In this document: positions 3,838 through 29,455 of the stretch, one piece after another
Layout: each line of letters starts with the position of its first letter
Position numbering within the stretch: position 1 is the stretch's first letter
DNA from: Kiloniellaceae bacterium
Lineage (GTDB): Bacteria > Pseudomonadota > Alphaproteobacteria > Kiloniellales > J153
Direction: 5' to 3'
Assembly: GCA_021776115.1 (NCBI GenBank)
Contig: JAJFGN010000050.1
Coordinates: 1-38,442 of the forward strand
Length of the DNA stretch: 38,442 nt
Position numbers and translations under genes: made by a program
Notes under the pieces: model-generated
Databases searched by the model: none
What the model saw: the letters and a program-made list of their open reading frames with translations, nothing else
What the model was told of the DNA's origin: nothing

Positions 3838-3865
3838 CGCGTCCTCCGTCGTCTCGCCGGCCGCG

Positions 3866-5275: not shown

Positions 5276-5319
5276 TTTCGACTCCTCTTAAGATCCGCGC
5301 GCTACCTCCGCCGCGCCTT

Positions 5320-6207: not shown

Positions 6208-6235
6208 GTTCGCGTCCCTTCCTGTTTCCAGACCC

Positions 6236-7384: not shown

Positions 7385-7421
7385 CTAAGACAACCTCCGT
7401 TCTTCTTCCTGTCAGCTTCGC

Positions 7422-8252: not shown

Positions 8253-8271
8253 GGCGCCTATCTCCCCGCTC

Positions 8272-9132: not shown

Positions 9133-9168
9133 GGTCGGGCGCCTCTTGGCTCACGAGGTGGGCATGCG

Positions 9169-9193
9169 ACGGGGCGGCCGGCGGCCGCCCCGT
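9169..9193 (-). terminator. Stem-loop after the polyamine-type binding-protein gene
   Basis: Perfect 11-base inverted repeat ACGGGGCGGCC / GGCCGCCCCGT with a 3-base loop, 19 bases past the binding-protein stop and 37 bases before the permease start. No T-tract follows, so it probably sets the expression ratio or mRNA stability within the operon rather than stopping it. Confidence 0.6.
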
Positions 9194-9211
9194 CCAGCGG
9201 TTCGCGGTCGC

Positions 9212-11440: not shown

Positions 11441-11575
11441 CGGTTTAATGCGAGCAAGTCTCAGAAGTGCCCGGGCCGCTGGCTATCAGGGCGCCAGTCG
11501 ACGTCATTCGGCCAAGGCCGCGGAGCAGTTCTGCTTGAAGGTTTCGCGGCTATAGAAATGGCGTCAACTCGTCCT
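11441..11575 (-). mobile_element. IS6-family element remnant, left end and transposase C-terminus
   Basis: This stretch aligns base by base with the left ends of the two other IS6-family copies (15822 and 28656): GGTTTAATGCGA matches their sub-terminal sequence. The minus-strand translation FKQNCSAALAE matches the transposase C-terminus FKQNRSAALAE. Only about 130 bases survive, and the terminal repeat is degraded. Confidence 0.65.
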
Positions 11576-15821: not shown

Positions 15822-16360
15822 GGTGATGTCAGTCTAACGCGAACCAGTCTCCAAGGCACCAGACATCGGGGTTTTCATGTCGCCAGTTGACGCTACTCAG
15901 CCAGAGCGGCGGAGCGGTTCTGCTTGAAGATGTCTCGGCGGTTGAGGTGACAGTCCTGATTAAAATGGTTGTGGATCGAGGCGTGATCGGCAGCGAATTT
16001 CTGTAGGGTCTTGATACCCCTGATTTTCGCCATCGCTCCCTCCCGTCGTCGAAACGGCTGATGGGAATTTTCCGCCCGATTGTTGAGCCACCGACCACAG
16101 ATCTGATCGGCGGCATTGCCGATCACCTTCATCGCAGCCCGGTATGACCGAAGACGATCCGTGACGATCGAGCGCGGCCGGCCGTAGCGTTTCATCGCAC
16201 GCTTCAGAAACTTCAGCGCAGCCTTGCGATCCCGGCGTTTCGTGGCAAAGACCTCGAGCACCTCGCCTTCGTGATCAACGGCCCGCCAAAGGTAGTGGGC
16301 CTCGCCATTGGTGCGCACGAACACCTCGTCCAGGTGCCAGCGCAACTGTGAATATGACCG
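15822..16360 (-). mobile_element. IS6-family insertion sequence, truncated
   Basis: The left terminus GGTGATGTCAGTCTAACGCG matches the end of the copy at 28656 (GGTGGTGTCAGTCTAATGCG). Homology continues through the transposase C-terminal two-thirds and breaks off at 16360 right after the codons for RSYS. The right inverted repeat and the transposase N-terminus are missing, so the copy cannot move by itself. It closes the right side of the acquired ABC operon. Confidence 0.85.
15893..16360 (-). pseudogene. IS6-family transposase, N-terminally truncated
   Basis: DDE transposase remnant of about 155 residues, against roughly 231 in the fuller copy at 28706-29401. It retains LDEVFV (first Asp), VTDRLRSYRAAMKVIG (second Asp), WLNNRAENSHQPFRRRE (Glu) and the end KQNRSAALAE. 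An open frame continues upstream to 16423, but that part (MARSPLAWQLLS...) has no transposase similarity and comes from the junction. It is not expected to be functional. Confidence 0.85.
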
Positions 16361-16445: not shown

Positions 16446-16467
16446 TTATATACGAAATGTATATAAT
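16446..16467 (+). promoter_or_regulatory. Palindromic operator and -10 box of the second GntR gene
   Basis: Perfect inverted repeat with 8-base arms TTATATAC and GTATATAA around a 5-base spacer (16446-16466). The right arm overlaps a consensus -10 hexamer TATAAT at 16462-16467. GTATAC-type half-sites are common for FCD-class GntR repressors, so autoregulation is likely. A related, less perfect copy lies at 22614-22640 between the divergent catabolic operons. Confidence 0.6.
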
Positions 16468-16565
16468 ATGCGGCTTTGGCCCCATCGCGATGCTGCGGCT
16501 TGTTCCCGGGCGCGGCGGGACGTTGGGCCAAACGAAGCGGCAGTGACAATCGGGAGCCTATAACA

Positions 16566-17267
16566 GTGGCGAACGCGATACCAGAGACCAAGAGCCGGTC
16601 TACTGCGACCACAAGCGACCCTGGCGCGCCCCCGGCCGCGGGCCGCTCGCTCTCGGACCACGCCTATCAAAAGTTGTTGGATATGATCGTTCATCGCCAG
16701 CTTTCCGGCGGCGAGGTCTTGGTCGAAAGCCGCCTCGCCGGGGCGCTTGGCCTGACCCGCACGCCGTTGCGCGAAGCGCTGGTGCGCTTGGAGGGCGAAG
16801 GGCTTCTGGTCAAGCAGGCAAACCGCTCCTTCGCCGTGCGCGCCGTGCAAGTCTCTGAATTCTTTCAAAGTCTGCGGGTGCGTGAGTATTTGGAGAGCCA
16901 CGCCGCCGCGCTCGCCGCGACGCGCGCCGCGCCAGTGGATATCGAAGTATTGCGCAACCGAATCGCCCATCTGGCAAAGATAGAGGCGCAAAGCCCGGAG
17001 CATTGGAAGTTGGACAACGATCTGCACAACTGGCTCGCCCAGTCGAGCGGCAACGCGGTCTTGGCTCAAGTCGTGCGAAAGCTGCGGATCACCACCCAAT
17101 TATTCGAGATCGGCCAGCCTTTCGACCGGGTCCAGGCCGACGCGGCCGAACACCTGGCCATATTGCGGGCCCTGGAACAGGGCGATTCGGCGGCCGCGCG
17201 GCATAAGATTGTGCAACATTTGCATAACATCGAGGCGGACGTTTTACGAATTGTCAGCAGTCATTAA
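16566..17267 (+). CDS. GntR family transcriptional regulator, FCD subfamily
   Basis: Repressor-type DNA-binding protein of 233 residues from a GTG start at 16566, preceded by GGGAG at good spacing. The open frame extends 90 bases upstream, but that part overlaps the promoter. A winged helix-turn-helix is seen in SDHAYQKLLDMIVHRQLSGG, LAGALGLTRTPLREALVRLE (recognition helix) and the wing VKQANRSFAVRAV. The FCD ligand domain follows, with LDNDLHNWLAQSSGN and HKIVQHLHNI supplying the usual metal/ligand histidines. The palindrome in its promoter recurs at 22614-22640, so it probably controls both its own gene and the oxidase/transporter divergon (inference). Confidence 0.9.
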   Translation: MANAIPETKSRSTATTSDPGAPPAAGRSLSDHAYQKLLDMIVHRQLSGGEVLVESRLAGALGLTRTPLREALVRLEGEGLLVKQANRSFAVRAVQVSEFFQSLRVREYLESHAAALAATRAAPVDIEVLRNRIAHLAKIEAQSPEHWKLDNDLHNWLAQSSGNAVLAQVVRKLRITTQLFEIGQPFDRVQADAAEHLAILRALEQGDSAAARHKIVQHLHNIEADVLRIVSSH

Positions 17268-17319
17268 ACGAACCCAAGGCCGTGGCGCGGGGTAAAATCT
17301 TAACGCGGAGGATTGGGGA

Positions 17320-18357
17320 ATGGCGAAACACGAGTATGAAACGGGTCGGTTGAACCTCCCCTTCGTCGGGCTTTGCACCTTCGCCAAGCAGCCCGTTTGC
17401 CTGGACTGGGACCATATCGACGCCGATGTCGCCGTCCTTGGTGTCCCCTTCGACATGGGGACCCAGTACCGGGCCGGCGCGCGCTTCGGTCCGCGGGCGA
17501 TTCGCGAGGCCTCGACCCTGTTTTCCTTCGGCCACGGCGGCGCTTACGACTTCGAGGACGATGTCGTCTATCTGCCGGTCGACAAGGTCAGGATCGTCGA
17601 TATCGGCGATGCCGACATGATCCACACCGATACCGGCAAGAGTCACGACAACGCCGAGTTCGCGGTGCGCAAGATCCTGAAATCGGGCGCGCTGCCGGTG
17701 GTATTGGGGGGCGACCACGCGGTCCATATTCCCTGCATCCGGGCCTTCGCCGAGGAGCCGCCGGTGCACCTGATCCACATCAACGCGCATCTGGATTTCG
17801 TCGACGAGCGCCACGGCGTGCGCTACGGCCACGGCAATCCTCTCCGGCGCGCCTCGGAGATGCAACACGTCACCGGCATGACCCAGATGGGCATCCGCAA
17901 CGTCTCCTCCTCCAACCGGCGCGATTACGAGGCGGCGCGGGCGGCGGGCTCCGACATTCTCTCGGTGCGCGACGTCCGACGGCTCGGCACCCAAGGGGTG
18001 CTCGAGCGGATCCCCGACGGCGTGCGCTACTATGCCACCGTCGACGTCGACGGCTTCGACCCTTCGATCGCCCCGGGCACCGGCACCCCCAGCCACGGCG
18101 GCTTCCTCTATTACGAGGTGCTGGAGATCTTCCAGGGCCTGGTCAAGAAGGGCGACATTGTCGGGATCGACTTTGTCGAGGTGGCGCCGGATTACGATCG
18201 CTCCGGGATTACCGCCTTCCTCGCCGCCCAGTTCCTGATGAACCTGCTCGGCTTCATTTTCGAAGAGAAGCAGGCGCGCGGGGCGCCTGGAGGACTACGG
18301 GATCGCGCCCGGCAAGCCGGCCGACCTGGTCGTCCTCGACTGCGAGACCCCGGCTGA
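17320..18357 (+). CDS. Agmatinase/arginase-family ureohydrolase with altered metal site and foreign C-terminus
   Basis: Manganese ureohydrolase-type protein that would release urea from a guanidino compound. Family landmarks: GVPFDMGTQYRAGARFGPRAIR (41-62), GGDHA with metal ligand H133, and VDVDGFDPSIAPGTGTP with ligands D242 and D244. The DAHxD motif reads NAHLD (155-159), so one conserved aspartate ligand is asparagine (codon AAC). Homology ends around FLMNLLGFIFEEK (residue 317). The last 28 or so residues read out of frame through the tail of a deleted amidohydrolase gene (18272-18451), so the native stop was lost. GGAGG precedes the ATG. It lies directly after the GntR gene on the same strand, with a 52-base gap. 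Activity is uncertain; guanidinobutyrate, agmatine or guanidine-type substrates are all possible. Confidence 0.82.
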   Translation: MAKHEYETGRLNLPFVGLCTFAKQPVCLDWDHIDADVAVLGVPFDMGTQYRAGARFGPRAIREASTLFSFGHGGAYDFEDDVVYLPVDKVRIVDIGDADMIHTDTGKSHDNAEFAVRKILKSGALPVVLGGDHAVHIPCIRAFAEEPPVHLIHINAHLDFVDERHGVRYGHGNPLRRASEMQHVTGMTQMGIRNVSSSNRRDYEAARAAGSDILSVRDVRRLGTQGVLERIPDGVRYYATVDVDGFDPSIAPGTGTPSHGGFLYYEVLEIFQGLVKKGDIVGIDFVEVAPDYDRSGITAFLAAQFLMNLLGFIFEEKQARGAPGGLRDRARQAGRPGRPRLRDPG

Positions 18358-18451
18358 GGCCGTGCGCGAACTCGCCGCGCCCCTGTTCGGCTTCAAGCGC
18401 GGCCGGCGCAGCTTCTCCTGCCCCGAAGCCGTGCTGCATCGACCGGATTAG
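18272..18451 (+). pseudogene. C-terminal remnant of a cytosine-deaminase-like amidohydrolase
   Basis: In the frame +1 to the ureohydrolase, the translation RLEDYGIAPGKPADLVVLDC, then ETPAEAVRELAAPLFGFKRGRR and a stop at 18449-18451, is the typical last 50 residues of amidohydrolases of the cytosine/adenine deaminase group (G-x-PADLVVLD followed by the closing beta strand). No start or catalytic domain remains. A deletion apparently joined the end of the ureohydrolase gene to the end of this one. Confidence 0.7.
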
Positions 18452-18629
18452 CGCGGATCACGGGGCGGGTAGTCGCGGGCGGCGGTGTCCACTCACAGAT
18501 GCGCAACGGTCAAGCGCAACGAATCCCACGAGTGGCACTAAGCGGAAGGACCTAAATACGGGACTTTGCGATCGGTATCTGGCATAACACCCACATCGCC
18601 ACCCCGCCGCCCGCCTACGCGCCCGTGCC

Positions 18630-19562
18630 CTACAACAACCCCACCCCATGCAAGACCCCCCGCAACACCGCGATTTCCGGCTCCGAGAGCGCCGGCGTCG
18701 GCGGGCGGGCGGCGGCGCAGTCTAGGCGGCCCAGGAGTTTCAAGCAGGCCTTGAGGCGCGCGGTCGCCAGGCCGCCCGGGGCGGTGCCGTAGATCGCCTT
18801 GGCGAGGGGATAGACGATCTCGTGCGCGGCCCGGGCGGCGGCCAGGTCGCCGTCGCGCACGGCGGCGTCGAGGGCAACGATGGCCTCGGGCACGATGACC
18901 GCGAGGCTCACTTGACTGCCGTCGCTGCCCAGGACAAAGCAGGACAGGAGATGCTCGTCGCCCGAGGCCAGCACCGCCACCTCGGGCGCCACGGATTTGA
19001 CCAAGCGCCGGTTGGCCTCGTAGGCCGCGGTCTCCCAACTGCCTTCCTTGATGGCGGCCACGCGCGGCAGGACCACCAGGTCGCGCAAGACCGCGGGCGG
19101 ATAGGCCATGGCGCCGGCGCCGACCGGGGCCTGATAGAGCATGATCGGCAGATCGGTCGCCTCCAGGACCGCGCGGTGATGGTGGAGCACGGCGCGCCGG
19201 TCCAGGGACAGCGCCCAGGAATTGGGCGGAAACACCATGACCGCATCGGCCCCGGCCGCCGCCGCCTCGCGCGCCTCGATGGCCAGCTCCGCGCTCGATT
19301 CCTGGTTGACCCCGGCGACGATCGGGATGTCAGGACCGGCGGCCGCGCGCGCGACCTCGATCACGCGGCGCTTCTCCGCGCGGCTCAGCACGAAGTTCTC
19401 CCCGGCATGGCCGTTGGCGAGCAAACCCCGGATGCCAGGCACCGCGCTCACGGCCGCGACGTGGCCCGCCAAGGCGGTCTCGTCCACTTGGAAATCCTCG
19501 GCCATGGGACAGAGAGTGGCGGCGTAGATCCCGCCGAAGGGATGGCGTGGTTGCTTGCTCAT
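18630..19562 (-). CDS. Dihydrodipicolinate synthase (DapA) family lyase/deaminase
   Basis: Class I aldolase-fold TIM barrel of 310 residues. The Schiff-base lysine is K172 (VAAIKEGSWE), the proton-relay tyrosine is Y143 (MLYQAPVG; usual Y-N-x-P becomes Y-Q-A-P) and the phosphate/carboxylate loop GxxGE is GHAGE (51-55). The family covers lysine synthesis but also many catabolic enzymes, including 1-pyrroline-4-hydroxy-2-carboxylate deaminase, which works after heterotrimeric D-hydroxyproline dehydrogenases. It is the last gene of an operon with such an oxidase (19605-22584), so a catabolic deaminase or keto-acid aldolase is the best reading (inference). No proline racemase-family epimerase is in the window to confirm a hydroxyproline route. 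Confidence 0.85.
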   Translation of the reverse strand: MSKQPRHPFGGIYAATLCPMAEDFQVDETALAGHVAAVSAVPGIRGLLANGHAGENFVLSRAEKRRVIEVARAAAGPDIPIVAGVNQESSAELAIEAREAAAAGADAVMVFPPNSWALSLDRRAVLHHHRAVLEATDLPIMLYQAPVGAGAMAYPPAVLRDLVVLPRVAAIKEGSWETAAYEANRRLVKSVAPEVAVLASGDEHLLSCFVLGSDGSQVSLAVIVPEAIVALDAAVRDGDLAAARAAHEIVYPLAKAIYGTAPGGLATARLKACLKLLGRLDCAAARPPTPALSEPEIAVLRGVLHGVGLL

Positions 19563-19604
19563 GTCAGGCCGGCCTCCAGTCTCCGCTAGGTATTGTTTTG
19601 CCGC

Positions 19605-20735
19605 TCACGTGCATGACGGCGCGACCAAGAGCCGGTCGGCGTCGAACAGCGGCAGCTCGGGCGCCTGGCCGAGAATGTTCTGCGCGAGAAGCCGCCCGAA
19701 ATACGGTCCGCTCATATAGCCGGAATGCACGCACCCGATGACATAGGCCTCCGGAATCCCGCCCAAGGGCCCGGCGATGGGCAGGGCGTCGTCGGTTTCG
19801 GCCTCGAACCCGAGCCAGGACCGCACGATCCGGGTCTCGGCCAGCGCCGGCACGACGTAGCGGGCCAGGCGCAGATTGCCGATCAGATTGTCGGGAACGA
19901 TTTCGGTGGTGCGCCGGGCGCGATCGCCTTTGCCCTGCCAGCCGCCGCCGATCAGCACGGTGCCGTTGGCGAACTGCTTTAAGGACAGGAGGCCGCTGGC
20001 GACGCCGAGGACACTGCGCATGACCGGGCGCAAGCGTTCCGTAACGATGAGCTGGTTTACCAAAGCCTTGATGCGAATCCGCAATCCGAACCAAGCCAGC
20101 ATCTCCTCCAGCCAGACGCCGCTTGCCAGCACCAGGCGGCGCGCGCGCGGTGCCGCCCCTGCCATGGCCAAACGGAAGCCGCCGTCGCCGGCTTCGATGC
20201 CGGTGACCGGCGCATTCTCGTACAGCCGCACGCCGGCTTCGACCAGGGCGCGCCGATACGCCATGCCGGTCAGGTTGGCGGTGACATAGCCGTCCATCGG
20301 GCAGTGGGCGGCGAGCCGGAACCTGTCGGTGAGACCCGGCTCGATCGCGCGCGCGCGCGAGGTGGCGATTATCTCGATCGGCGCGCCTTGCGCGCGCCGG
20401 GCCTCGACCCGCGCCTCGAGCAGCGCCGCCTCTTGCGCCGTGAAGGCGAGAGAAAGACCGTCGGTCACGGTAACGCCCGGATCGCCGCCCAGCCAATCCG
20501 GCGCGGCCTTCCACATTTCCCAGCCGCGCATGGCATAGGGAATCAGCGCGGCGCGGGTCATATGCAGGGTCAGCGTGCCGGCATTCACGCCCGATGCCTC
20601 CCGGCACACCCCGCCGGCATCGATCAGGGCGCAGCGCATGCCGCCGCGCGCCAGGAACAAGGCCGTGGTCGCGCCCATGACACCGGCGCCCACCACCGCC
20701 GCGTCATAGGGCTCGCCAACGGGTATTTGTGCCAT
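19605..20735 (-). CDS. FAD-dependent D-amino acid/opine-type oxidoreductase, HcnC/LhpB-like subunit
   Basis: Flavoprotein of the DAO family, 376 residues. The frame is open far upstream, but the ATG at 20735 comes 29 bases after the previous stop and directly before the FAD-binding motif VVGAGVMGATTALFLA (G16-x-G-x-x-G21). The substrate domain and the closing GCVHSGYMSGPYFGRLLAQ are typical of HcnC, opine oxidase B and D-hydroxyproline dehydrogenase beta subunits. It oxidises an amine/imino acid and passes electrons to the alpha (20765-22201) and 2Fe-2S (22198-22584) subunits and then to the membrane chain. Third gene of a four-gene operon. Confidence 0.88.
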   Translation of the reverse strand: MAQIPVGEPYDAAVVGAGVMGATTALFLARGGMRCALIDAGGVCREASGVNAGTLTLHMTRAALIPYAMRGWEMWKAAPDWLGGDPGVTVTDGLSLAFTAQEAALLEARVEARRAQGAPIEIIATSRARAIEPGLTDRFRLAAHCPMDGYVTANLTGMAYRRALVEAGVRLYENAPVTGIEAGDGGFRLAMAGAAPRARRLVLASGVWLEEMLAWFGLRIRIKALVNQLIVTERLRPVMRSVLGVASGLLSLKQFANGTVLIGGGWQGKGDRARRTTEIVPDNLIGNLRLARYVVPALAETRIVRSWLGFEAETDDALPIAGPLGGIPEAYVIGCVHSGYMSGPYFGRLLAQNILGQAPELPLFDADRLLVAPSCT

Positions 20736-20764
20736 CTTGCCCAAGCTTGCCTCGCCCGTGCGCT

Positions 20765-22201
20765 CTACAATGGGGCCGCGGCCGGTAGCGGAATGTCGGC
20801 ATAGTCGAAATCGCCGGCCAAGGCATCCACGCCCAGCGGCCGCAGCGGAGCCCGCGCGGTCCAGGCGCCGGCGGCCTCGCGGGACCCGGTGCGCGCCGCC
20901 ACGATTTGGCCGACCGTGTCGCCGCACATGCGACCCTGGCATGGCCCCATGCCGCAACGGGTCCAGGACTTGAGCTGGTTCACATCGGCAGCCCCGCGCT
21001 CGAGCGCCGCTTCCACCTCGGCGCGGGTCACATCCTCGCAACGACACACCACCGTGTCGCCGGCGATGCCATCGACTTGTCCCGGGCGCTGGGCCATCAA
21101 GCGGGCCATGGCCCGGCCGAAGCGCCGGGCGCGTGCGAGCCGCCGCCGCAAGGGCGCCGTCGCGCGCGCGTGGTGCCCGGCATCGATCCGGCCGAGATCG
21201 AGCGCCGCCGTCATCCCGGCGATCCGGCCGGCCAGGAACGCGGCCGCCGCCCCGCGCACCCCGGCGCCGTCGCCGGCGGCATAGAGCCCAGCGCGGCTGC
21301 TGCGCTGATCGCGGTCGAGCCGGGGCACCCATCCGCCCGCATCGGCATCGAAAACCACCTCGGCCCCGAGCAAGCGCACCGCCTCCGTCGCCGGAATCAA
21401 CCCATGGCCGACGACCAGGCTGTCCGCCTCCAGCGTCTTTTCGCTTGCCGATGGGATGGGGCGGCCCGCAGCATCCACGGCGCCGAGCGAGACCTCCAGC
21501 CCGGCGCCCGCCGCGCGCGCCTCGCGCACGCCATGACGGAACAGCAAGGGCACGCCCTGGGCGCGAAGTCGTGCCATCCAGGATGCGCCCCGCAGAAGAT
21601 CGCGCGGTTGCCCAAGCAGGGCCGGCAGGGCATGCAACCAGGCGCCCGGCCCGGCCAGATCGGCGACCGCCACGACCTGCCCGCCGCCCTTCCGGATAGC
21701 GTTGGCAACCGCGAACAGCAGCGGACCGCAGCCGGCGACCAATACCCGCTCGCCCGGCAGCACGCACTGCGACTTCAGCAGTATGGTCGCGGCGGCCAGG
21801 CCCATGACGCCGGGCAGGGTCCAGCCCGGAAACGGCACGACCCGCTCGGTCGCGCCGGCCGCCGCCACGATGCCCTTGGGCCGCCAGGATTCCGGGCCCT
21901 CCGGGCCCAAGGCATCGACTCTCAGGTCGGTTCCAATCGACCACACCAGGCGGCCAAAGGCGGTGCCGGCGCCGGAGTCCGCGAGAAGACGGCGCTGCCG
22001 CTCACCTTCCCGGTAGTCCGGGCCGAGGCCGCTCGCGTCGCCCGGCTCGAAAGCGCCCGGCAGGGGCCGATACACCTGGCCGCCGGCGGCGGACCCTGAG
22101 TCCACGATCAACGCCTCGACCCCGCAGGTGGCCAGCGCCAGCGCTGCGCCCAGGCCCGCCGGGCCCGCGCCCAGGATCAGGATTTCGGGATCGCGGGTCA
22201 C
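20765..22201 (-). CDS. FAD/NAD(P)-binding oxidoreductase with BFD-like 2Fe-2S domain, HcnB/OoxA-like subunit
   Basis: Alpha subunit of the heterotrimeric oxidase, 478 residues. The start is GTG 22201, overlapping the TGA of the preceding gene (GTGA); an ATG upstream would add an Arg-rich extension. Domains: an N-terminal Rossmann FAD site LILGAGPAGLGAALALA, a second dinucleotide fold VLVAGCGPLLFAVANAI near residue 155, the FAD closing motif LYAAGDGAGVRGAAAAFLAG, and a C-terminal BFD-like iron-sulfur domain with cysteines near 386, 388, 416, 421 and 426 (CRCEDV and CGMGPCQGRMCG). This architecture is shared by HcnB, octopine/nopaline oxidase A and D-hydroxyproline dehydrogenase alpha. The substrate is not determined by this subunit. 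Confidence 0.9.
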   Translation of the reverse strand: MTRDPEILILGAGPAGLGAALALATCGVEALIVDSGSAAGGQVYRPLPGAFEPGDASGLGPDYREGERQRRLLADSGAGTAFGRLVWSIGTDLRVDALGPEGPESWRPKGIVAAAGATERVVPFPGWTLPGVMGLAAATILLKSQCVLPGERVLVAGCGPLLFAVANAIRKGGGQVVAVADLAGPGAWLHALPALLGQPRDLLRGASWMARLRAQGVPLLFRHGVREARAAGAGLEVSLGAVDAAGRPIPSASEKTLEADSLVVGHGLIPATEAVRLLGAEVVFDADAGGWVPRLDRDQRSSRAGLYAAGDGAGVRGAAAAFLAGRIAGMTAALDLGRIDAGHHARATAPLRRRLARARRFGRAMARLMAQRPGQVDGIAGDTVVCRCEDVTRAEVEAALERGAADVNQLKSWTRCGMGPCQGRMCGDTVGQIVAARTGSREAAGAWTARAPLRPLGVDALAGDFDYADIPLPAAAPL

Positions 22202-22584
22202 CCCGCGGCCCCGGTCTCGACCCGCATGCCGTCGCAAACCGCGACCTGGCACGCGAGCGCCCGCTTACCGTCAACCCGCACCAGGCATTCCTGGCAGGCG
22301 CCCATCATGCAAAACACGCCGCGCGGGGTTCCGGCCCGCGAGCTTTGGCGCAGCGCGCGACGGCCGGCGGCCAGCAAGGCGGCGGCCAGGCTCTCCCCGG
22401 CAAAGGCGTCGAGGGCCTGGCCATCGACCCACAGGGTAACGGCCGGGCCCCGGCGAACCTGATTTGCGATGCGAAGCGGCATGGTGGGCCTGAAGGCGGT
22501 CTCCTCTTCGGTGCGGCGATTCGGCTCGCGTCCGGAACGCGGGCCCGCGTGTGTGCCGCCGCGCGGCAAGCTTTGTGTTGACAT
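22198..22584 (-). CDS. 2Fe-2S ferredoxin-like subunit, HcnA-like
   Basis: Small electron-transfer subunit of 128 residues. Its iron-sulfur ligands C92, C97, C100 and C112 form C-x4-C-x2-C-x11-C (GVFCMMGACQECLVRVDG, then LACQ), as in HcnA. The preferred start is the ATG at 22584. A second ATG at residue 35 (MPLRIANQVRRGP) is nearer to where family homology begins, and the first 34 residues are low complexity, so the start is uncertain. First gene of the leftward operon; the divergent transporter gene begins 150 bases to the right, with the palindrome at 22614-22640 between them. Confidence 0.87.
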   Translation of the reverse strand: MSTQSLPRGGTHAGPRSGREPNRRTEEETAFRPTMPLRIANQVRRGPAVTLWVDGQALDAFAGESLAAALLAAGRRALRQSSRAGTPRGVFCMMGACQECLVRVDGKRALACQVAVCDGMRVETGAAG

Positions 22585-22613
22585 TCTTATGCCGCGATGG
22601 TCGGATGGCAACA

Positions 22614-22640
22614 AGATCGTATATAATATGTATATGATCT
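22614..22640. promoter_or_regulatory. Shared operator candidate between divergent oxidase and transporter operons
   Basis: AGATC (22614-22618) and GATCT (22636-22640) flank an A/T-rich core with TATAAT (22622-22627) and ATGTATAT. The 27-base region is an imperfect palindrome with 10 of 13 symmetric pairs. Aligned with the perfect palindrome at 16446-16466, 15 of 21 bases agree. The position lies 30 bases before the leftward start and 95 before the rightward start, suitable for control of both by the GntR protein at 16566 (inference). Confidence 0.5.
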
Positions 22641-22734
22641 GACCGAACAAGAGTTCGGCGACGAAGCGAGGGAATGGCAAACGCCCGAGCGAGGGTTTTG
22701 ATTTGCCAAAATTGGGACAGAGGAGGCAGAAGAA

Positions 22735-23544
22735 ATGCTGGGATCAATCCTAAGACACCTAGCCGGCGCAGCCATCGCGATCGCGCTTTTGGCTCCGGTT
22801 GGCGGCGAAGCAAGAACGCTCGATGAAATCTTGTCATCGAAGAAGCTGGTCGTTGGCGTAAACCCGACCCTGCCACCGCTCGGCAAATATAACGACAAGA
22901 ACGAGATTGTCGGCTTCGACGTAGACGTCTCCCAGCGGATCGCCGAGATGCTCGGCGTCGAGCTCGAGATCGTCAAGGTTGGCTCGCCCGACAGAATTCC
23001 TTTCGTGGCCAGCGGCAAGATCGATTACGTCATGGGCGCAATGACCCGCAACCCGCAGCGCGCCAAGATCATCGACTTCTCGGTGCCGGTCCATACCGAG
23101 GTCTTCGGCGTCCTGACCACCGAAGGCAAGCCCTACAAGCACTGGAAGGAACTAAACGATTCCAGCGTCAAGCTGGTCCAGGTGCGCGGAACGACTCCGG
23201 TCAAGTTCATCGAGAAAAACCTGCCGAAGGCGGAAGTCCTCCTGCTGGACAACTACCCGGACGTGATTCGCGCGCTGGCACAAGGCCGCGGGGATGCTAT
23301 GGTCGACGTGGTGGATTTTGTCGGCGAGCACATGAACAAGTACGACGTCAAATGGAAGGTCGTCGAAACGCCGGTCAATGTCTACTTCTGCACGCTGGGC
23401 GTGGCCAAGGGCAACGACAGCCTGCGCAATTGGCTAAACGTCGCGTTGTTCGAGCTCCACCGCGAAGGCTTTATCGACGAGACCTGGAAGAAGTGGTTCG
23501 GGATCGACATGCTTTTCAGTGTCAGCGCGTCGCCCTACTTCTGA
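22735..23544 (+). CDS. Polar amino acid ABC transporter substrate-binding protein (family 3)
   Basis: Periplasmic binding protein of 269 residues with a Sec signal peptide (HLAGAAIAIALLAPVGGEA, cleavage near residue 25). The mature protein shows the family 3 pattern: LVVGVNPTLPPLGKYNDKNE, then IVGFDVDVSQRIAEMLGVEL and the DYVMGAMTRNPQRAKIIDFS loop that binds the amino-acid carboxylate. GAGGAGG lies ahead of the ATG. It is the first gene of the rightward operon (binding protein, two permeases, ATPase, two hydrolases, exporter). The ligand is probably an amino acid or derivative that the co-regulated oxidase and hydrolases degrade (inference). Confidence 0.92.
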   Translation: MLGSILRHLAGAAIAIALLAPVGGEARTLDEILSSKKLVVGVNPTLPPLGKYNDKNEIVGFDVDVSQRIAEMLGVELEIVKVGSPDRIPFVASGKIDYVMGAMTRNPQRAKIIDFSVPVHTEVFGVLTTEGKPYKHWKELNDSSVKLVQVRGTTPVKFIEKNLPKAEVLLLDNYPDVIRALAQGRGDAMVDVVDFVGEHMNKYDVKWKVVETPVNVYFCTLGVAKGNDSLRNWLNVALFELHREGFIDETWKKWFGIDMLFSVSASPYF

Positions 23545-23564
23545 GGTTTGGGAGCGACAGCCTA

Positions 23565-23599
23565 CGCCGCCCCGGCACCCTTAACCTGCCGGGGCGGCG
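23565..23599 (+). terminator. Stem-loop after the amino acid binding-protein gene
   Basis: Perfect 13-base inverted repeat CGCCGCCCCGGCA / TGCCGGGGCGGCG with a 9-base loop, 20 bases past the stop codon and 45 bases before the permease start. No T-tract follows. This is the strongest of the four hairpins found after binding-protein genes in this window. Confidence 0.65.
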
Positions 23600-23644
23600 A
23601 CACTTGATACCGTTTCATTCGATCTCCAAAAGGCGCGCCCGGGC

Positions 23645-24319
23645 GTGAGCTATACCCTGCAATTCGGGCAAGTCACCGGCTATCTGCCGTATTTGGCCGG
23701 CGGTGCCTGGATCAGCCTGCAGATCGCCTTTCTCGCCTTTTGCGGCGGCATGGTCATCGGCCTGTTCGGCGCCATGGCCAAGACCTTCGGCGGCCGGGCG
23801 TTGAACCATCTGGTCGGCGGCTACGTCACGTTTTTCATGAATACGCCGCAGTTGGTGCAGATCTACTTTATCTATTTCGCCTTGCCCGACGCCGGGATTC
23901 TGCTCACATCCTATGAGGCGGTGCTGATCGGCATGACCCTCAACGCCGGCGCTTACCTGACCGAGATTCAGCGCGCCGGTTTCGAATCGGTGCATCGTAA
24001 CGAGATGGAGGCGGCGGAGACCCTGGGTATGACCCTGATGCAGCGCGTCCGCTATGTGGTGCTCCCGCACATCGCCCGGGTCCTGTTCCCGCCGCTTTCG
24101 AACCAGTACATCCTCATGACGCTGGGCACCTCCATGGCGGCCATCTTCGGCGTCGAGGAATTGACCGGCCGCGCGTTCAACGTCAACGCGGAAACCTTCC
24201 GCTCGATCGAGGTCTTTTCGCTCACCGCCGGCCTCTACATCGTCGTCACCCTGGCCGCGACACTGCTCCTCGGCCTGTTTGGCCGCTTCATGTTCCGCGC
24301 CAAGATGAGGCTCTACTGA
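23645..24319 (+). CDS. Polar amino acid ABC transporter permease 1 (HisM/GlnP-like)
   Basis: Inner-membrane permease of 224 residues starting with GTG at 23645. Hydrophobic segments include AGGAWISLQIAFLAFCGGMV, and the family motif NTPQLVQIYFIYFALP is present. The EAA loop reads MEAAETLGMTLMQRVRYVVL, followed by PHIARVLFPPLSNQ. Its stop overlaps the next start (TGATG), so the two permeases are translationally coupled and form the heterodimeric channel. Confidence 0.92.
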   Translation: MSYTLQFGQVTGYLPYLAGGAWISLQIAFLAFCGGMVIGLFGAMAKTFGGRALNHLVGGYVTFFMNTPQLVQIYFIYFALPDAGILLTSYEAVLIGMTLNAGAYLTEIQRAGFESVHRNEMEAAETLGMTLMQRVRYVVLPHIARVLFPPLSNQYILMTLGTSMAAIFGVEELTGRAFNVNAETFRSIEVFSLTAGLYIVVTLAATLLLGLFGRFMFRAKMRLY

Positions 24320-25008
24320 TGCTTGCGCGTATCGTCGCCGAAGCGCCGGAGTTTTTCAGCTACTACAATATCGTCTTCCTGCTGGAGGCGATGCTGGCGA
24401 CCTTCGCGTTGTCGGCGGTCGGCTGCGTCATCGGTTTCGCGGCGGGTTTCTTCCTTGCGGTCTCGCGACGCACTATCTCCGTCCTTCTACTACCGCTTCG
24501 CGCATTGACCGCCGCCTTCATCGAGATGTTTCGCCGCATCCCCTTCCTGGTCACCCTGATGATGGTGTTTTTCGTTTTCCAGGTCCTTGGTTTGGATATC
24601 TCCATGTTTTCCGTGGCGCTGATCAGCGTGTGTCTGATCGCCACCGCCTTCATCGCCGAGATCATCCGCGCCGGCTTGGAGTCGGTTCACCGCACGCAAT
24701 GGGATACCGCGGCGGCGATGAACATGAACCTGATCCAGACCCTGCGCTACGTCATCATGCCGCAGGCTTGGAAGATCATCCTGCCGCCGGTGTTCAGCTT
24801 TTTTATCTTGTTCATCAAGGATACGGCGCTGGCTTCGCAGATCGGTGTCGTGGAGCTGACGTATGCCGGAAAGGTGCTGAACAACAAGGGGTTCTCGGCC
24901 GCTTTGGTGTTCGGTTCGATCCTGATTTTGTATTTCATCCTGTCCTATCCGCTCGCCAAGTTCGGGGCGCGCCTGGAGCAGAAGCTTGCCGCAGCTCGAA
25001 ATTCTTGA
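24319..25008 (+). CDS. Polar amino acid ABC transporter permease 2 (HisQ/GlnP-like)
   Basis: Inner-membrane permease of 229 residues, beginning at the ATG overlapping the previous TGA. The signature FRRIPFLVTLMMVFFVFQVL is the equivalent of the family's RGTPLLVQL segment. The EAA loop is WDTAAAMNMNLIQTLRYVIM, followed by PQAWKIILPPVFSFFILFIKDTALA. It overlaps the ATPase gene by 23 bases. Confidence 0.92.
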   Translation: MLARIVAEAPEFFSYYNIVFLLEAMLATFALSAVGCVIGFAAGFFLAVSRRTISVLLLPLRALTAAFIEMFRRIPFLVTLMMVFFVFQVLGLDISMFSVALISVCLIATAFIAEIIRAGLESVHRTQWDTAAAMNMNLIQTLRYVIMPQAWKIILPPVFSFFILFIKDTALASQIGVVELTYAGKVLNNKGFSAALVFGSILILYFILSYPLAKFGARLEQKLAAARNS

Positions 25009-25723
25009 CCTCAAGGCCGCCTACGGCCAAGAGCCGGTCCTGGAAAACATCACCCTTTCGGTCGAGAAGGGGGAGATCGTTAGCCTGATCGGCCCCTCGG
25101 GCTCCGGCAAGAGCACCTTGCTTAGGGTCTTGATCGGCCTGTTGCCGCCGATCGCGGGAGAGGTGCATCTCGACGGCGAGCGGATCGACTATGGAGACAA
25201 GCGCACGCTGCGATCCTTGCGCGACCGCCTCGCGATCGTTTTTCAGCAGTACAATTTATTCCAGAACATGACCGCGCTGCAGAACGTCACCATAGCGCCG
25301 ACCAAGGTTAAGAAGCGCCCGGCGCGCGAGGTCGAAGAGGAGGCCAAGACTCTCTTGAGCAAGGTGGGACTTGGGGACAAGTTCGACGCCTACCCGGACG
25401 AGCTTTCCGGCGGCCAGCAACAGCGCGTGGCCATTGCCCGGGCCCTGGCCTTGAAGCCGGAGGTTCTTCTGCTCGATGAAGTGACCTCGGCTCTCGACCC
25501 GGAACTGGTCAATGAGGTTCTCGACTCCATCCGCCTGCTCGCGGCCGAGGGCATGACCATGTTCATCGTTTCGCACGAGATGGGTTTCGTGCGCGAGCTT
25601 TCCTCCAAGGTCGCCTTCATGGCAGATGGTCACATCGTGGAAATCGGCGCCCCGGCGCGGATCTTCGACCAGCCTGAAAAGGATAGGACGCGCGACTTCG
25701 TGAGCAAGATCTTGCGCCACTGA
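24986..25723 (+). CDS. Polar amino acid ABC transporter ATP-binding protein (GlnQ/HisP-like)
   Basis: ATPase of 245 residues: Walker A GPSGSGKST (36-44), Q-loop IVFQQYNLFQNMTALQN, signature [15 protein letters not shown] (140-154), Walker B LLLDEV (161-166) followed by TSALDPELV, and the switch histidine in IVSHEMGFVREL. The proline of the common DEPTSALD is valine here. The start is TTG at 24986, behind GGAG at 7 bases, because no ATG occurs before the conserved first strand. It energises the importer formed by 22735, 23645 and 24319. Confidence 0.92.
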   Translation: MPQLEILDLKAAYGQEPVLENITLSVEKGEIVSLIGPSGSGKSTLLRVLIGLLPPIAGEVHLDGERIDYGDKRTLRSLRDRLAIVFQQYNLFQNMTALQNVTIAPTKVKKRPAREVEEEAKTLLSKVGLGDKFDAYPDELSGGQQQRVAIARALALKPEVLLLDEVTSALDPELVNEVLDSIRLLAAEGMTMFIVSHEMGFVRELSSKVAFMADGHIVEIGAPARIFDQPEKDRTRDFVSKILRH

Positions 25724-25739
25724 ATAAGGAGGTGCCGGG

Positions 25740-26687
25740 ATGAACAACGCCATTCCGCTTGAAGCGATGCCGGGCGATCGGCCGGGCGCGGCGCTTCTGA
25801 AAGGCGCGGTCGATTGCCACATCCATGCCTGCCCGCACTTGAACGGGCGCAGCGTCGATGTGTTTCAGGCGGTCCGCGAAGCCGCGGCCTGCGGCATGCG
25901 CGGCATCGGCCTGATGGACAACTTCGCCAGCAGCGCCGGCTATGCCGCGCTGGCGCGCCGGGAACTCGGCGAGCTGGGCGTCGATGTCTTCGGCGGCCTG
26001 ATCATGGAGCCGCAAAGCGGCGGGATCAGCGCCGACGCCGTGCGCGCATCGCTGGGCTGCGGCTACGGACCCGAAGACGGCGCCCGCTTTATCTCCTTGC
26101 CGACCCATCATACGCAAAATATCGCCCGCATCGAGGGCCGTAGCCCGGCCTACCTCGAGACATGCCTCGCGATTCCCGAGCGCGGCGAACCGCCCGATCC
26201 TCTGCCCGAAATCCTGGACCTCATCGCGGAGCACGATGTTGTGCTCAACACCGGCCACATTTCCGGGCCGGAGGCCGTGCGCCTGGTCGAGATCGCGAAG
26301 CAGCGCGGCATTGGGCGCATCTTGGCCCCCTGCTCGCACTATAGCGCCGAGGAGGCGCGCGCCGTCGCATCCCAGGGCGGCTATGCCGAATTTTCCTTCT
26401 TCTTCCTCAGCCATGCCACGCAAGTCGGACTCACCCATGTCGATGCCGAGCGGCACACGGTCCCGCCCGTATCCTTGGGACAAATGGCCGAACTCATCCG
26501 TGCCGCGGGCCCCGAGAACACCGTCCTTTCCAGCGATTGCGGCGTCTATGTCCTGCCACCCCCGGCCGAGGGTCTGCGCGAGTTCCTCTTGATGATCGAA
26601 AGCGCGGGCTTCGATCGGCCCGCGCTGGACCGCATGGCGCGGGTGAATCCGGGCATGTTATTCAAGGTCTCGAAAGACCAAACGTGA
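25740..26687 (+). CDS. TIM-barrel metal-dependent hydrolase, DUF6282-like
   Basis: Amidohydrolase-like protein of 315 residues whose function is not established in the family as I know it. An N-terminal metal-binding motif VDCHIHACPHLNGR (H27, H29, H33) is followed by GMRGIGLMDNF. Later candidate ligands are THHTQNIARIEG, VVLNTGHISGPEAVRLVE (GHISG-type histidine) and the C-terminal LSSDCGVY aspartate. The very strong ribosome-binding site AAGGAGG sits 16 bases after the ATPase stop. Its stop overlaps the start of the phosphotriesterase-like gene (TGATG). The two hydrolases therefore likely act on one pathway, perhaps opening an amide or lactone in the imported compound (inference). Confidence 0.8.
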   Translation: MNNAIPLEAMPGDRPGAALLKGAVDCHIHACPHLNGRSVDVFQAVREAAACGMRGIGLMDNFASSAGYAALARRELGELGVDVFGGLIMEPQSGGISADAVRASLGCGYGPEDGARFISLPTHHTQNIARIEGRSPAYLETCLAIPERGEPPDPLPEILDLIAEHDVVLNTGHISGPEAVRLVEIAKQRGIGRILAPCSHYSAEEARAVASQGGYAEFSFFFLSHATQVGLTHVDAERHTVPPVSLGQMAELIRAAGPENTVLSSDCGVYVLPPPAEGLREFLLMIESAGFDRPALDRMARVNPGMLFKVSKDQT

Positions 26688-27721
26688 TGAGCGGCACGGC
26701 CCGAGGCTTCATTCAGACCGTCACCGGGCCGATCGCGCCCGAGGTCCTGGGCCCGACCCTGATGCACGAGCATTTGCTCTGCGATATCACACCACCGGAT
26801 TTGGCCGCGCGGGGCAGGCCAGATGTCCCGATTACCTTGGAAAACTGCTGGGATATCCACCGCCACTGGTGCCGGCACCAGGGCAACAATCGCCTCACGG
26901 ACATTGCCGTGGCCGTGGACGAGTTGGCCCGGGTCAAGCGCGCGGGCGGCAGCGCCCTGGTCGAGGTGACAACTCACGGCATTAAGCCGGATCCTGTGGG
27001 CCTGCGCCGGATTTCCGAGTTGAGCGGGGTCACCGTCGTCGCCGGTTGCGGCTACTATGTCGAGGAATTCCTGCCCGAGGATCTGGCGGCGCGAAGCGTC
27101 GAGGCGCTGGCCGAGACCATGACGACCGGTCTCACCCAGGGCCTGATGGGCAGCGACGTGAAAGCGGGAATCATCGGCGAGATCGGGTGCTCCGACCCCT
27201 TAACCGGATTGGAGCGCCGGGTTCTCCAAGCCGCCGCCCTTGCCCAGCGGGAAACCGGGTCGAGCATCACCATCCATCCTGGCCGGCGGCCCGAGGCGCC
27301 CGAACAGGCGCTCGCGGTCGTGCGCGAGAGCGGCGGCGACCCGGCGCGCTGCATCGTCGGCCACATCGACCGCACGATTTTCGACGACGATACCTTGTTC
27401 CGGCTGGCCGATACCGGCTGCGTGATCGAGTACGACTTCTTCGGCATCGAGTCCGCCTACTACCCCTTTCAGGATATCGACCTGCCGAACGACGGCGGGC
27501 GTCTGGCCGCTCTACGGCGCCTGATCGAGCGGGGGCATCTCGAGCAGATTGCGGTCTCGCAAGATATCTGCACCAAGACCCGGCTCAGCCGTTTCGGGGG
27601 CCACGGCTATGGCTACATCTTCGAGCACGTCGTTCCCATGATGCGGCGGCGCGGCTATTCCGAGGATGAGATCGAAACGATTCTCGTCGCGACGCCGCGC
27701 CGACTGCTCACACTGCAATGA
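26687..27721 (+). CDS. Phosphotriesterase-like lactonase/hydrolase (PHP/PTER family)
   Basis: Binuclear-metal TIM-barrel hydrolase of 344 residues. Metal ligands are visible: H27 and H29 (LMHEHLLCD), a bridging glutamate E165 (GIIGEIGCSD) in place of the carbamylated lysine of true phosphotriesterase, H197 (ITIHPGRRP), H226 (VGHIDRT) and D293 (VSQDICTKTR). The glutamate bridge is known in the E. coli PHP type, so this is not a phosphotriesterase proper. Lactonase or amidase activity is more likely. The ATG at 26687 overlaps the previous stop; the frame is open upstream but without family similarity. It ends in an ATGA overlap with the transporter gene. Confidence 0.88.
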   Translation: MSGTARGFIQTVTGPIAPEVLGPTLMHEHLLCDITPPDLAARGRPDVPITLENCWDIHRHWCRHQGNNRLTDIAVAVDELARVKRAGGSALVEVTTHGIKPDPVGLRRISELSGVTVVAGCGYYVEEFLPEDLAARSVEALAETMTTGLTQGLMGSDVKAGIIGEIGCSDPLTGLERRVLQAAALAQRETGSSITIHPGRRPEAPEQALAVVRESGGDPARCIVGHIDRTIFDDDTLFRLADTGCVIEYDFFGIESAYYPFQDIDLPNDGGRLAALRRLIERGHLEQIAVSQDICTKTRLSRFGGHGYGYIFEHVVPMMRRRGYSEDEIETILVATPRRLLTLQ

Positions 27722-28602
27722 CGGGAAACCCGGCCGAGCGGAGTTCGCGCCCACTTCTCGGTGTCGCCTTGATGCTGCTTGCGGTCCTGTCATTCACGGT
27801 TCTCGACAGCACGGCCAAGTACCTATCGTCTTCCTTGCCGGTCGCGCAGCTGGTTTGGGGCCGCTTTTTTTTCACGCTGCTGCTGACGCTCGCCTTCCTG
27901 CCGTGGCTCGGCCTGCAGGGCCTGTGCCGGACCCGGCGCCCGTTGCAACAGTTCCTGCGCGGCGCCACGCTACTCGGTGCGACCGGGTCACTGTTCCTGG
28001 CGGTCAAGTACCTGCCGCTGGCCGAAACCTATGCGATCACCTTCGTCTCGCCTTTCATGGTCGCCATAGCGGCCGGCCTGCTGCTCGGCGAGCGCGTGGA
28101 TTGGCGCCGCTGGCTTGCGATCCTCGGCGGCTTCGCCGGCGTCTTGGTGGTTATCCGGCCGGGTAGCGGCGCCTTCACCTGGCACGTGGTTTTTCCCTTG
28201 GCGATGGCGGCCTTCTGGGCCGCCAATCAAGTGATCACCAGGGTTCTCGGGGCAAGCGACCGGCCGGTCGTGACACTATTCTATACGGCTTTGATAGGCA
28301 CCCTTGGTGCGAGCATCTTCGCTGCCGCTGCTTGGCGCCCGCCGGATCTTCTGGGCTGGCTGGGCATGGCCTGGATGGGAGCAATCGGGTTCTTGAGCCA
28401 GTTTGCCGTTATCTACGCCTTCGCCCTGGCGCCAGCCTCGCTCCTGTCTCCCTTAACTTACACCCAGATCGTTTGGGCCGCGCTGATTGGCTATGTCGTC
28501 TTCGCCGATATTCCCGACGCTTTCACTTTAATTGGTGCAGCGATCGTGATCCTCAGCGGCGTCGCCCTTGTCGCTGTCAGAAATCAGACTATACAGGAGT
28601 GA
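27718..28602 (+). CDS. EamA/DMT-family transporter
   Basis: Integral membrane protein of 294 residues with about ten hydrophobic helices in two EamA repeats. The first starts LLGVALMLLAVLSFTVLDST; the second begins near residue 160 (HVVFPLAMAAFWAANQVITR) and ends TLIGAAIVILSGVALVAVRN. Motifs such as PLAETYAITFVSPFMVAIAA are usual for drug/metabolite transporters. ATGA overlap with the preceding hydrolase gene makes it the last gene of the rightward operon. It may export a product or take up a related metabolite. The IS6-family element starts 53 bases later. Confidence 0.88.
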   Translation: MTGNPAERSSRPLLGVALMLLAVLSFTVLDSTAKYLSSSLPVAQLVWGRFFFTLLLTLAFLPWLGLQGLCRTRRPLQQFLRGATLLGATGSLFLAVKYLPLAETYAITFVSPFMVAIAAGLLLGERVDWRRWLAILGGFAGVLVVIRPGSGAFTWHVVFPLAMAAFWAANQVITRVLGASDRPVVTLFYTALIGTLGASIFAAAAWRPPDLLGWLGMAWMGAIGFLSQFAVIYAFALAPASLLSPLTYTQIVWAALIGYVVFADIPDAFTLIGAAIVILSGVALVAVRNQTIQE

Positions 28603-28655
28603 GGCGTTGTCAGATGAAAGTGAGCTGTTCTGAGAAGGCGATGATACAATGAGGT

Positions 28656-29455
28656 GGTGTCAGTCTAATGCGAACCAGCCTCCAAAGCTCGCGAGGTCAG
28701 GGTCCTTAGGCCGCCAGCTGACGCCATTCGGCCAGAGCAGCTGATCTGTTTTGCTTAAAGATATCGCGGCGGTTTAGATAACGTTCCTGGTTGAAAAGAT
28801 TGTGGATCGAGGCGTGAGCGGAAGCGAACTTCTGCAGGGTCTTGATGTCCCTGAACCTGGCCATCGCTCCTTCTCGTCGTCGGAACGGCTGGTGTGAGTT
28901 TTCGGCTCGATTGTTGAGCCAACGTCCACATTCCTGGCGATCCACGATTCCAATCACCTTCATCGCGGCGCCGTAAGACCGGAGCCGGTCCGTTACAATG
29001 GTCCAAGGCCGGCCGTAGCGTTTCATCGCCCGCTTAATAAACTTCAGCGCAGCCTTGCGATCCCGGCGTTTTGTGGCAAAAACTTCGAGTACCTCGCCTT
29101 CATGATCGACGGCGCGCCAGAGGTAGTGCGTTTCACCATTGATTCGGACGAACACTTCATCCAGATGCCAACGCCATTACGAATATGACCGATGATGAAT
29201 GCGTCGTTTCCTGATCTCCGTGGCAAACATCGGACCGAACCGGTTCCACCAGAAACGCACTGTTTCGTGGCAAATATCAATGCCACGCTCAAACAGCATA
29301 TCTTCGACCTGCCGCAGTGAGAGCGGATACCGGGTGTACATCATCACCGTGAGGCGAATTACCTCCGGTGAACTGTTGAAATAACGGAAGGAGTTTTGCA
29401 TTGCAGAAAGCTACGGAACCCCGCTAGGAGGCTCAAGCCAATTTACTCTGACACC
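28656..29455 (-). mobile_element. IS6-family insertion sequence, nearly complete
   Basis: About 800 bases, normal for the family. The ends form an imperfect inverted repeat: left GGTGTCAGTCTAA (from 28656) and, read from the right end, GGTGTCAGAGTAA (from 29455); the match may extend three bases further out. It encodes one transposase on the minus strand. No matching 8-base flanking duplication is seen (AATGAGGT left, GCCCACGA right), so the copy is old or recombined. Confidence 0.85.
28706..29401 (-). pseudogene. IS6-family transposase interrupted by an in-frame stop
   Basis: DDE transposase of 231 codons. The N-terminal part (MQNSFRYFNSSPEVIRLTVM through the helix-turn-helix region RHxxTVRFWWNRFGPMFATEIRKRR) and the catalytic part (LDEVFVRINGE, VTDRLRSYGAAMKVIG, HQPFRRREGAM) are in the same frame, split only by TAA at 29179-29177. 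The equivalent codon in the copy at 15822 is CAG (Gln), so one C-to-T change explains the stop. The C-terminal part could only be made by readthrough or reinitiation. Confidence 0.88.

Follow-up and report, generated by a model that had tools for sequence, protein, structure and literature searches.

Which compound would a bacterium import and degrade with a polar amino acid importer, a three-subunit flavin dehydrogenase, a DapA-family lyase and several amidohydrolases? The question is raised by contig C45 of the 4.3 Mb genome of a Kiloniellaceae bacterium (GenBank JAJFGN010000050.1), analyzed here over its full 38,442 bases (the window). The cassette genes span 16.4-28.6 kb of the window (Table 1), with a G+C content of 65.5% versus 61-62% in both flanks. 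The gene set, its co-conservation, operator-like sites and the patterns of catalytic residues were all directly observed. We propose that the cassette takes up and degrades a small amino acid derivative of the cyclic ureide or amide kind, a reading to which we give slightly less than an even chance. The enzymes are of known kinds in a new combination, and a literature search confined to titles found no paper titled for such a gene combination or chemistry.

Co-conservation of the gene set

Loci with related genes were tabulated in 35 rows representing 34 distinct places (L073 and L022 are one contig, equal in length and content, and were counted once), mostly with about 10 kb on each side; matches were accepted at an E-value of 1e-6 with coverage >35%. 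A DUF6282 protein scan of the named genome collection is the basis of a set of 13 loci, 12 at 53-70% identity and one at 30%. HcnB, HcnC and a complete ATP-binding cassette (ABC) importer accompany DUF6282 in eight of the 13 (L018-L024 and L026). DapA is present too in seven of those eight; in the eighth, L020, the contig stops short of where it would be. The phosphotriesterase-like hydrolase (PTE) is present in six of the 12 closer loci; the L018 contig stops just after DUF6282. L070, from another genome, carries nearly the whole set on one stretch, ordered M20-PTE-DUF6282-ABC // HcnABC-DapA-hydA-GntR, where hydA is a dihydropyrimidinase gene. L028 (Halomonas) has HcnABC, DapA in two frames, DUF6282 and a dihydropyrimidinase, with no importer in its 21 kb; L029 and L025, both beside contig ends, read DUF6282-DapA-M20 and HcnA-DUF6282-M20, respectively. 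The distant DUF6282 loci L030-L033 (30-34%) contain no HcnC, DapA or PTE.

The sample of 385 genomes from the class contains three with a close DUF6282 (at least 67%) and six with a close DapA; the three all carry both genes on one contig (hypergeometric P = 2e-6, or 1.4e-4 when the genome of the window is excluded). The system is rare, its DapA being found in 2 of 398 genomes of a phylum sample that includes the window's genome. HcnABC, DapA, the amino acid importer and DUF6282, often with PTE, are a co-conserved unit in alphaproteobacteria. Since the gene set recurs linked in distant bacteria, a real nutrient-degradation pathway is likely. The original prediction, made on this DNA from its letters alone, had proposed an undescribed co-conserved catabolic system and had named a neighborhood survey beforehand as one way to refute it; the survey showed the genes to be co-conserved. 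DUF6282, a family not named in the literature searched, gains a conserved set of partners.

A plasmid sister form and its dihydropyrimidinase

Eight plasmid records carry DapA at 54.8-61.5% identity. The divergent arrangement SBP-permeases-ATPase // HcnA-B-C-DapA (SBP, solute-binding protein) is shared by seven of them, from Paraburkholderia (L034), Acidisoma (L035), Pantoea (L036), Rhizobium lusitanum (L041), Burkholderia cenocepacia (L044), Hyphomicrobiales UR115 (L045) and Rhizobium rhododendri (L046). This sister form mostly carries hydA (seven of the eight records) instead of DUF6282 and PTE. The DapA-linked dihydropyrimidinases form two clades (38-43% identity between them, 55-82% within one and 52-85% within the other), which argues that the opening of a cyclic diamide belongs to the chemistry.

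The window encodes a dihydropyrimidinase, HydA, whose five best plasmid matches are 55-60% identical, followed by a drop to 48%. Four of these five are DapA-linked hydA genes, and the hydA that follows DapA in L070, in company with DUF6282 and PTE, is 60% identical to that of the window. The Cytobacillus homolog (48%; the sole one opened of the next homologs) adjoins preA in a pyrimidine operon. HydA keeps the metal ligands, the carboxylated Lys, Tyr155 and Asn337, with Thr at Ser288; the metal residues, Tyr155 and Asn337 are intact in the eight dihydropyrimidinase sequences checked. Judged by these likenesses, HydA is probably a partner of the cassette.

The fifth plasmid match of HydA is in L074, an island of Polaromonas plasmid pE10SP1 with no DapA in the 19 kb shown. 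This ureide island encodes an SBP-3 importer, a cysteine-desulfurase-like protein, HydA, ureidoglycolate lyase, a ring-opening amidohydrolase, an Asp/Glu racemase and a polysaccharide deacetylase. In the window, the apparent operon of hydA (2851-10519, minus strand) encodes asparaginase, the dihydropyrimidinase, a polysaccharide-deacetylase-family protein and a PotABCD-like importer. In L041 a RutA gene comes after the cassette; it was considered as a substitute ring opener and dropped, since open reading frames (ORFs) of fitting size and a RutF-like gene (251.5 bits against a cut-off of 254.75) in between suggest an ordinary neighboring rut operon.

The flavin dehydrogenase and the DapA-family lyase

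For the opine/D-hydroxyproline dehydrogenase family, PMC4575208 gives the alpha-subunit motif as C-x-C-x15-20-C-x4-C. The alpha subunit of the window has GxGxxG and a cysteine spacing of 32 (27 is possible) versus the printed 15-20; the Ti-plasmid subunit also has 32. In the beta subunit, GAGVMG at 16 and RSW at 305 match GxGxxG and Arg-x-Trp, and the gamma subunit contains C-x4-C-x2-C-x11/12-C. The three subunits thus show most of the motifs of this dehydrogenase type.

The DapA-family protein scores 105.9 bits against TIGR00674, the model of dihydrodipicolinate synthase (DHDPS) proper, for which the cut-off is 206.15 bits, and is below all NCBIfam cut-offs. The Thr-Thr of GTTGE is typical of DHDPS proper; GHAGE replaces it in all 16 aligned rows (the window twice and 14 others). 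The Lys position of AAIKEG, which we take to be the Schiff-base Lys of the DHDPS superfamily, is kept. We regard the protein as an unassigned superfamily member because GHAGE stands for GTTGE and no NCBIfam cut-off is passed; within the DapA family it stands for a clade whose active-site motif is altered (His-Ala for Thr-Thr). The pairing of HcnABC-type oxidation with a DapA-family lyase, put forward in the original prediction, agrees with the linkage in relatives and the motifs present. The loci L055 and L056, on plasmids of Sulfitobacter and Rhizobium leguminosarum, carry a related operon with genes for IclR, BKACE, a class III aminotransferase, a CoA transferase, an SMP-30 lactonase, a DapA-family protein (with GDNGE), HcnABC and a short-chain dehydrogenase/reductase. 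The catalytic subunit of the window is 45% identical to one in a Sulfitobacter BKACE-aminotransferase-SMP-30 operon.

A dehydrogenase of this type raises the alternative of opine (or opine lactam or lactone) catabolism, in which an N-carboxyalkyl amino acid would be imported, its lactam opened by the amidohydrolases and the product split by the Odh-type dehydrogenase into an amino acid and a 2-oxo acid. The HcnABC subunits do carry flavin opine dehydrogenase motifs, and opine clusters likewise pair such genes with ABC importers, as described in PMC4575208. However, the catalytic subunit is just 30% identical to that of pTiL-11 (L057), which adjoins an octopine/nopaline dehydrogenase gene, and neither such a gene nor ornithine cyclodeaminase is among the cassette genes identified. 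Opine operons are not known to include dihydropyrimidinase or DapA, which counts further against this alternative, and we consider it unlikely.

In a D-hydroxyproline-type route, HcnABC would oxidize a D-configured cyclic amine and the DapA-family enzyme would deaminate the pyrroline. Known hydroxyproline operons do pair a heterotrimeric dehydrogenase with a DapA-family deaminase; however, the amidohydrolases would be left unexplained, and no epimerase is among the cassette genes identified, no search having been aimed at one. Likewise, neither a proline racemase nor a semialdehyde dehydrogenase is among the window genes identified, with no search aimed at either in the window or the genome. 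In relatives, dapA and hcnC are separated by a gene of ~1.4 kb (L018, L020 in part, L022 and L072) that had been expected to encode a KGSA/semialdehyde dehydrogenase. That idea was rejected, as the gene encodes a class III aminotransferase. The relatives give no support to the known hydroxyproline routes, as had been anticipated from the window, and we judge this alternative quite improbable.

The PTE and DUF6282 hydrolases

Among the PDB matches listed, the best for PTE are 9efa and 9efb (284 bits), structures of PTER, which the PDB title calls N-acetyltaurine amidohydrolase; 3k2g (202), 3rhg (151) and E. coli PHP (139) follow. PTE is 41% identical to 9efa and has the metal ligands and the bridging Glu. 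The PTE alignment, which took matches of >38% identity and 70% coverage from the collected loci, has 12 rows, the window and 11 others from 10 genomes (L010 and L022 being one genome). Arg204 and Arg233, in mouse PTER numbers set on 9efa by motif and offset with the mouse sequence itself not aligned, are Arg in the window PTE and in the 11 other rows, at 49% or more. Of five more distant PTEs, hand-picked from 30 matches listed of 158 records, L080 alone has Arg at these positions and the remaining four have Gly and Pro, like 3k2g. With PTER as the closest PDB match and two of three substrate-contact residues kept, PTE is likelier to be an N-acyl-amino acid amidohydrolase, its specificity possibly shifted, than a lactonase. 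Bacterial relatives of the obesity-linked mammalian hydrolase PTER are here seen in an operon context. PTER-like genes at 49-52% to the window PTE also lie near class III aminotransferases in L038-L040, on rhizobial and Paraburkholderia plasmids, with aldehyde dehydrogenases nearby in the two rhizobial loci.

By sequence, nothing in the PDB matches DUF6282 convincingly (best E 0.2). The AlphaFold model of DUF6282 (pLDDT 89.3, pTM 0.90) is a TIM barrel with HxH, and gives Z of about 18-20 over ~230-260 residues to TatD, PTE, dihydroorotase and dipeptidase structures. Across 14 sequences, His27, His29 and Asp266 do not vary and His173 hardly does. According to the model, DUF6282 is an amidohydrolase-superfamily barrel. 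The earlier claim of two TIM-barrel hydrolases is supported, both as amidohydrolases; PTE is read as PTER-like rather than as a plain lactonase. Ring opening, given there to both enzymes, is better assigned to the dihydropyrimidinase outside the span then considered, perhaps together with DUF6282. One of the substrate options suggested at that time, an N-acyl amino acid derivative, is supported.

If PTE and DUF6282 were instead lactonases, the substrate would be an acyl-homoserine-lactone-like compound or a sugar lactone. Other PTE-family members are lactonases by their PDB entry titles, and two related HcnABC-DapA operons carry an SMP-30/gluconolactonase gene. Against this lactone route, PTER is of the PTE-family structures listed the nearest to the window PTE, which retains both arginines, and the alternative partner is a dihydropyrimidinase. 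We view the lactone route as a long shot.

The GntR regulator and operator-like palindromes

The GntR regulator is 61% identical to the GntR adjoining DapA in L018. Two operator-like palindromes lie in the window, one upstream of gntR and one in the divergent hcnA/SBP promoter. The pattern TATAYN{3,8}RTATA was devised after viewing these two sites, and it is the related loci that test it. In the 38,442 bases it has three overlapping matches at two places, with none in 100 shuffles that preserved the overall base composition of the GC-rich window rather than that of its AT-rich promoters. The scan of relatives covered 16 loci with HcnABC and the importer (316,485 bases; L028, L029, L072 and others omitted, as was L073, the copy of L022) and found 12 operator-like sites. 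Eight lie between hcnA and the SBP gene, in seven loci (L018, L020 with two, L034, L035, L036, L044 and L045), three are before or at the 5' end of gntR (L018, L034 and L044, the last 23 bases inside the longest possible ORF) and one is elsewhere (L024). GntR may bind these palindromes, and the cassette is probably one regulon.

Proposed pathway

For the proposed amino-acid-derived cyclic ureide or amide, we infer the regulation, the substrate class, the order of the steps and each reaction. The SBP-3 importer would bring the amino-acid-like compound into the cell. The dihydropyrimidinase-type enzyme (3866-5275), perhaps with DUF6282, would open its -CO-NH-CO- ring, and the PTER-like enzyme, or M20 deacylases in some relatives, would then strip an N-acyl or N-carbamoyl group. 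The HcnABC/Odh-type flavin dehydrogenase may oxidize the D- or secondary amine to a 2-imino/2-oxo acid, passing the electrons on. With this acid the DapA-family enzyme could form a Schiff base, followed by cleavage or dehydration. In some relatives, a class III aminotransferase would take the omega- or beta-amino fragment.

Several observations weigh against this reading. DUF6282 of L027 (55%) has no other cassette gene in 21 kb, a true negative. In L037 (Comamonadaceae), DapA-hydA occurs without the HcnABC/importer arrangement, and L041 is without hydA. In all eight plasmid records with DapA, both DUF6282 and PTE are absent within 11 kb, and the core can therefore do without them. The window's hydA lies 12 kb upstream of the cassette in another apparent operon, and the pattern scan of the window found no operator-like site at it; in 9 of the 16 related loci the divergent promoter contains no strict match to the operator pattern. 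Relatives have aminotransferase and M20 genes that the window lacks, PTER His300 is Cys in the window PTE and the 11 other rows, and no relative of the gene set with a known substrate was found.

It is conceivable, though doubtful, that an undescribed pathway has spread among soil, marine and plant-associated bacteria, acting on a natural compound not known to be degraded by bacteria. Such a pathway would combine the opening of a cyclic ureide and the N-deacylation of a beta-amino fragment by a PTER-type enzyme with a flavin dehydrogenase of opine type and a new lyase of the DapA family (His-Ala for Thr-Thr). Together, the DUF6282 partner set, the bacterial PTER relatives and the DapA-family clade bring a so far uncharacterized nutrient of marine and plant-associated bacteria within reach of tests on a few proteins.

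Gene content of the window

The features are collected in Table 1. All genes of the earlier list are present, with ORFs and families in agreement (Pfam, NCBIfam and relatives). The overlaps noted then among the hydrolase and EamA genes amount to 1 base for DUF6282/PTE and 4 bases for PTE/EamA.

Table 1. Cassette genes, operator-like sites and probable outside partner in the window
Feature	Position	Strand	Basis
GntR operator-like palindrome TATATACGAAATGTATATA	16447-16465		upstream of gntR; TATAYN{3,8}RTATA match
GntR/FCD regulator	16566-17267	+	Pfam FCD, GntR; ORF can start at 16476
Agmatinase-like ureohydrolase, accessory, not co-conserved	17320-18357	+	TIGR01230 184.3 vs cut-off 174.3 bits; INAHLD replaces DAHLD
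DapA-family putative Schiff-base lyase, NGHAGE motif	18630-19562	-	Pfam DHDPS
Beta subunit, HcnC/OdhB type, FAD dehydrogenase	19605-20735	-	Pfam DAO; GxGxxG, RxW
Alpha subunit, HcnB/OdhA type	20765-22201	-	Pfam Pyr_redox_2, SO_alpha_A3, Fer2_BFD
Gamma subunit, HcnA/OdhC type, 2Fe-2S	22198-22584	-	Pfam Fer2_4; C-x4-C-x2-C-x11-C
Second operator-like palindrome	22620-22634		hcnA/SBP divergent promoter
Periplasmic binding protein, SBP family 3 (SBP_bac_3)	22735-23544	+	family match; 79-81% in L018, L020, L070
Polar amino acid ABC importer permease	23645-24319	+	Pfam/NCBIfam match
Second permease of ABC importer	24319-25008	+	ORF and matches in relatives; not scanned against family libraries
Importer ATPase	24986-25723	+	ORF and matches in relatives; not scanned against family libraries
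DUF6282 predicted amidohydrolase	25740-26687	+	Pfam PF19799 (Pfam only); AlphaFold fold
PTER-type Glu-bridged putative amidohydrolase (PTE)	26687-27721	+	best PDB match 9efa/9efb PTER, 284 bits
EamA transporter	27718-28602	+	family match; 36-37% matches also in L019, L026
Dihydropyrimidinase/D-hydantoinase, probable partner outside cassette	3866-5275	-	TIGR02033 582 vs cut-off 393 bits

The first Asp of DAHxD is a metal ligand in agmatinase/ureohydrolase, and the ureohydrolase of the window has Asn there (NAHLD). Catabolism of a guanidino compound, with this enzyme as the core step, would suit a gene that starts 52 bases past gntR on the same strand and inside the cassette, but it is highly improbable, and the earlier suggestion of a guanidino-bearing substrate is not supported, because the ureohydrolase has no match in the 35 table rows (34 distinct places), being found in the window only, and because of the Asp to Asn change.

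Two broken transposase remnants, 15822-16360 and 28653-29191, bracket the cassette in the same orientation, and a third piece of 65 bases (78%) is at 11486-11550. The flanking remnants are presumably IS6-like by their motif. A composite transposon was rejected, these remnants being just 80% identical and broken.

Comparison with known systems

Flavin opine dehydrogenase systems (OdhABC, and NoxAB/OoxAB with importer) resemble the cassette in the three-subunit dehydrogenase, the common cofactor motifs and the link to an ABC importer. In contrast, the cassette adds DapA, DUF6282, the PTER-type enzyme and dihydropyrimidinase, with no opine synthase or ornithine cyclodeaminase among the genes identified. 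Operons for D-hydroxyproline dehydrogenase and pyrroline-4-hydroxy-2-carboxylate deaminase also place a heterotrimeric dehydrogenase beside a DapA-family enzyme. The cassette differs from them in the NGHAGE motif and its several amidohydrolases; no epimerase or semialdehyde dehydrogenase is among the genes identified, none having been searched for.

PTER, an N-acetyltaurine/N-acetyl-beta-alanine hydrolase, shares with the window PTE the metal ligands, the two substrate-contact arginines and the identity seen with 9efa, whereas PTE is bacterial, belongs to an operon and has Cys for His300. N-acetyltaurine degradation in Ruegeria pomeroyi (naaS amidohydrolase, naaABC importer; PMC4334477) similarly combines an importer with an amidohydrolase for an N-acyl compound, a likeness of gene roles and not of NaaS and PTE sequence; the parts of PMC4334477 available to us name no HcnABC or DapA. 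Hydantoin/dihydropyrimidine degradation (D-hydantoinase) has in common with this system the dihydropyrimidinase, DapA-linked in seven of the eight plasmid records, whereas here that enzyme goes with the HcnABC dehydrogenase and the DapA-family lyase and, in the window, is encoded apart from the cassette.

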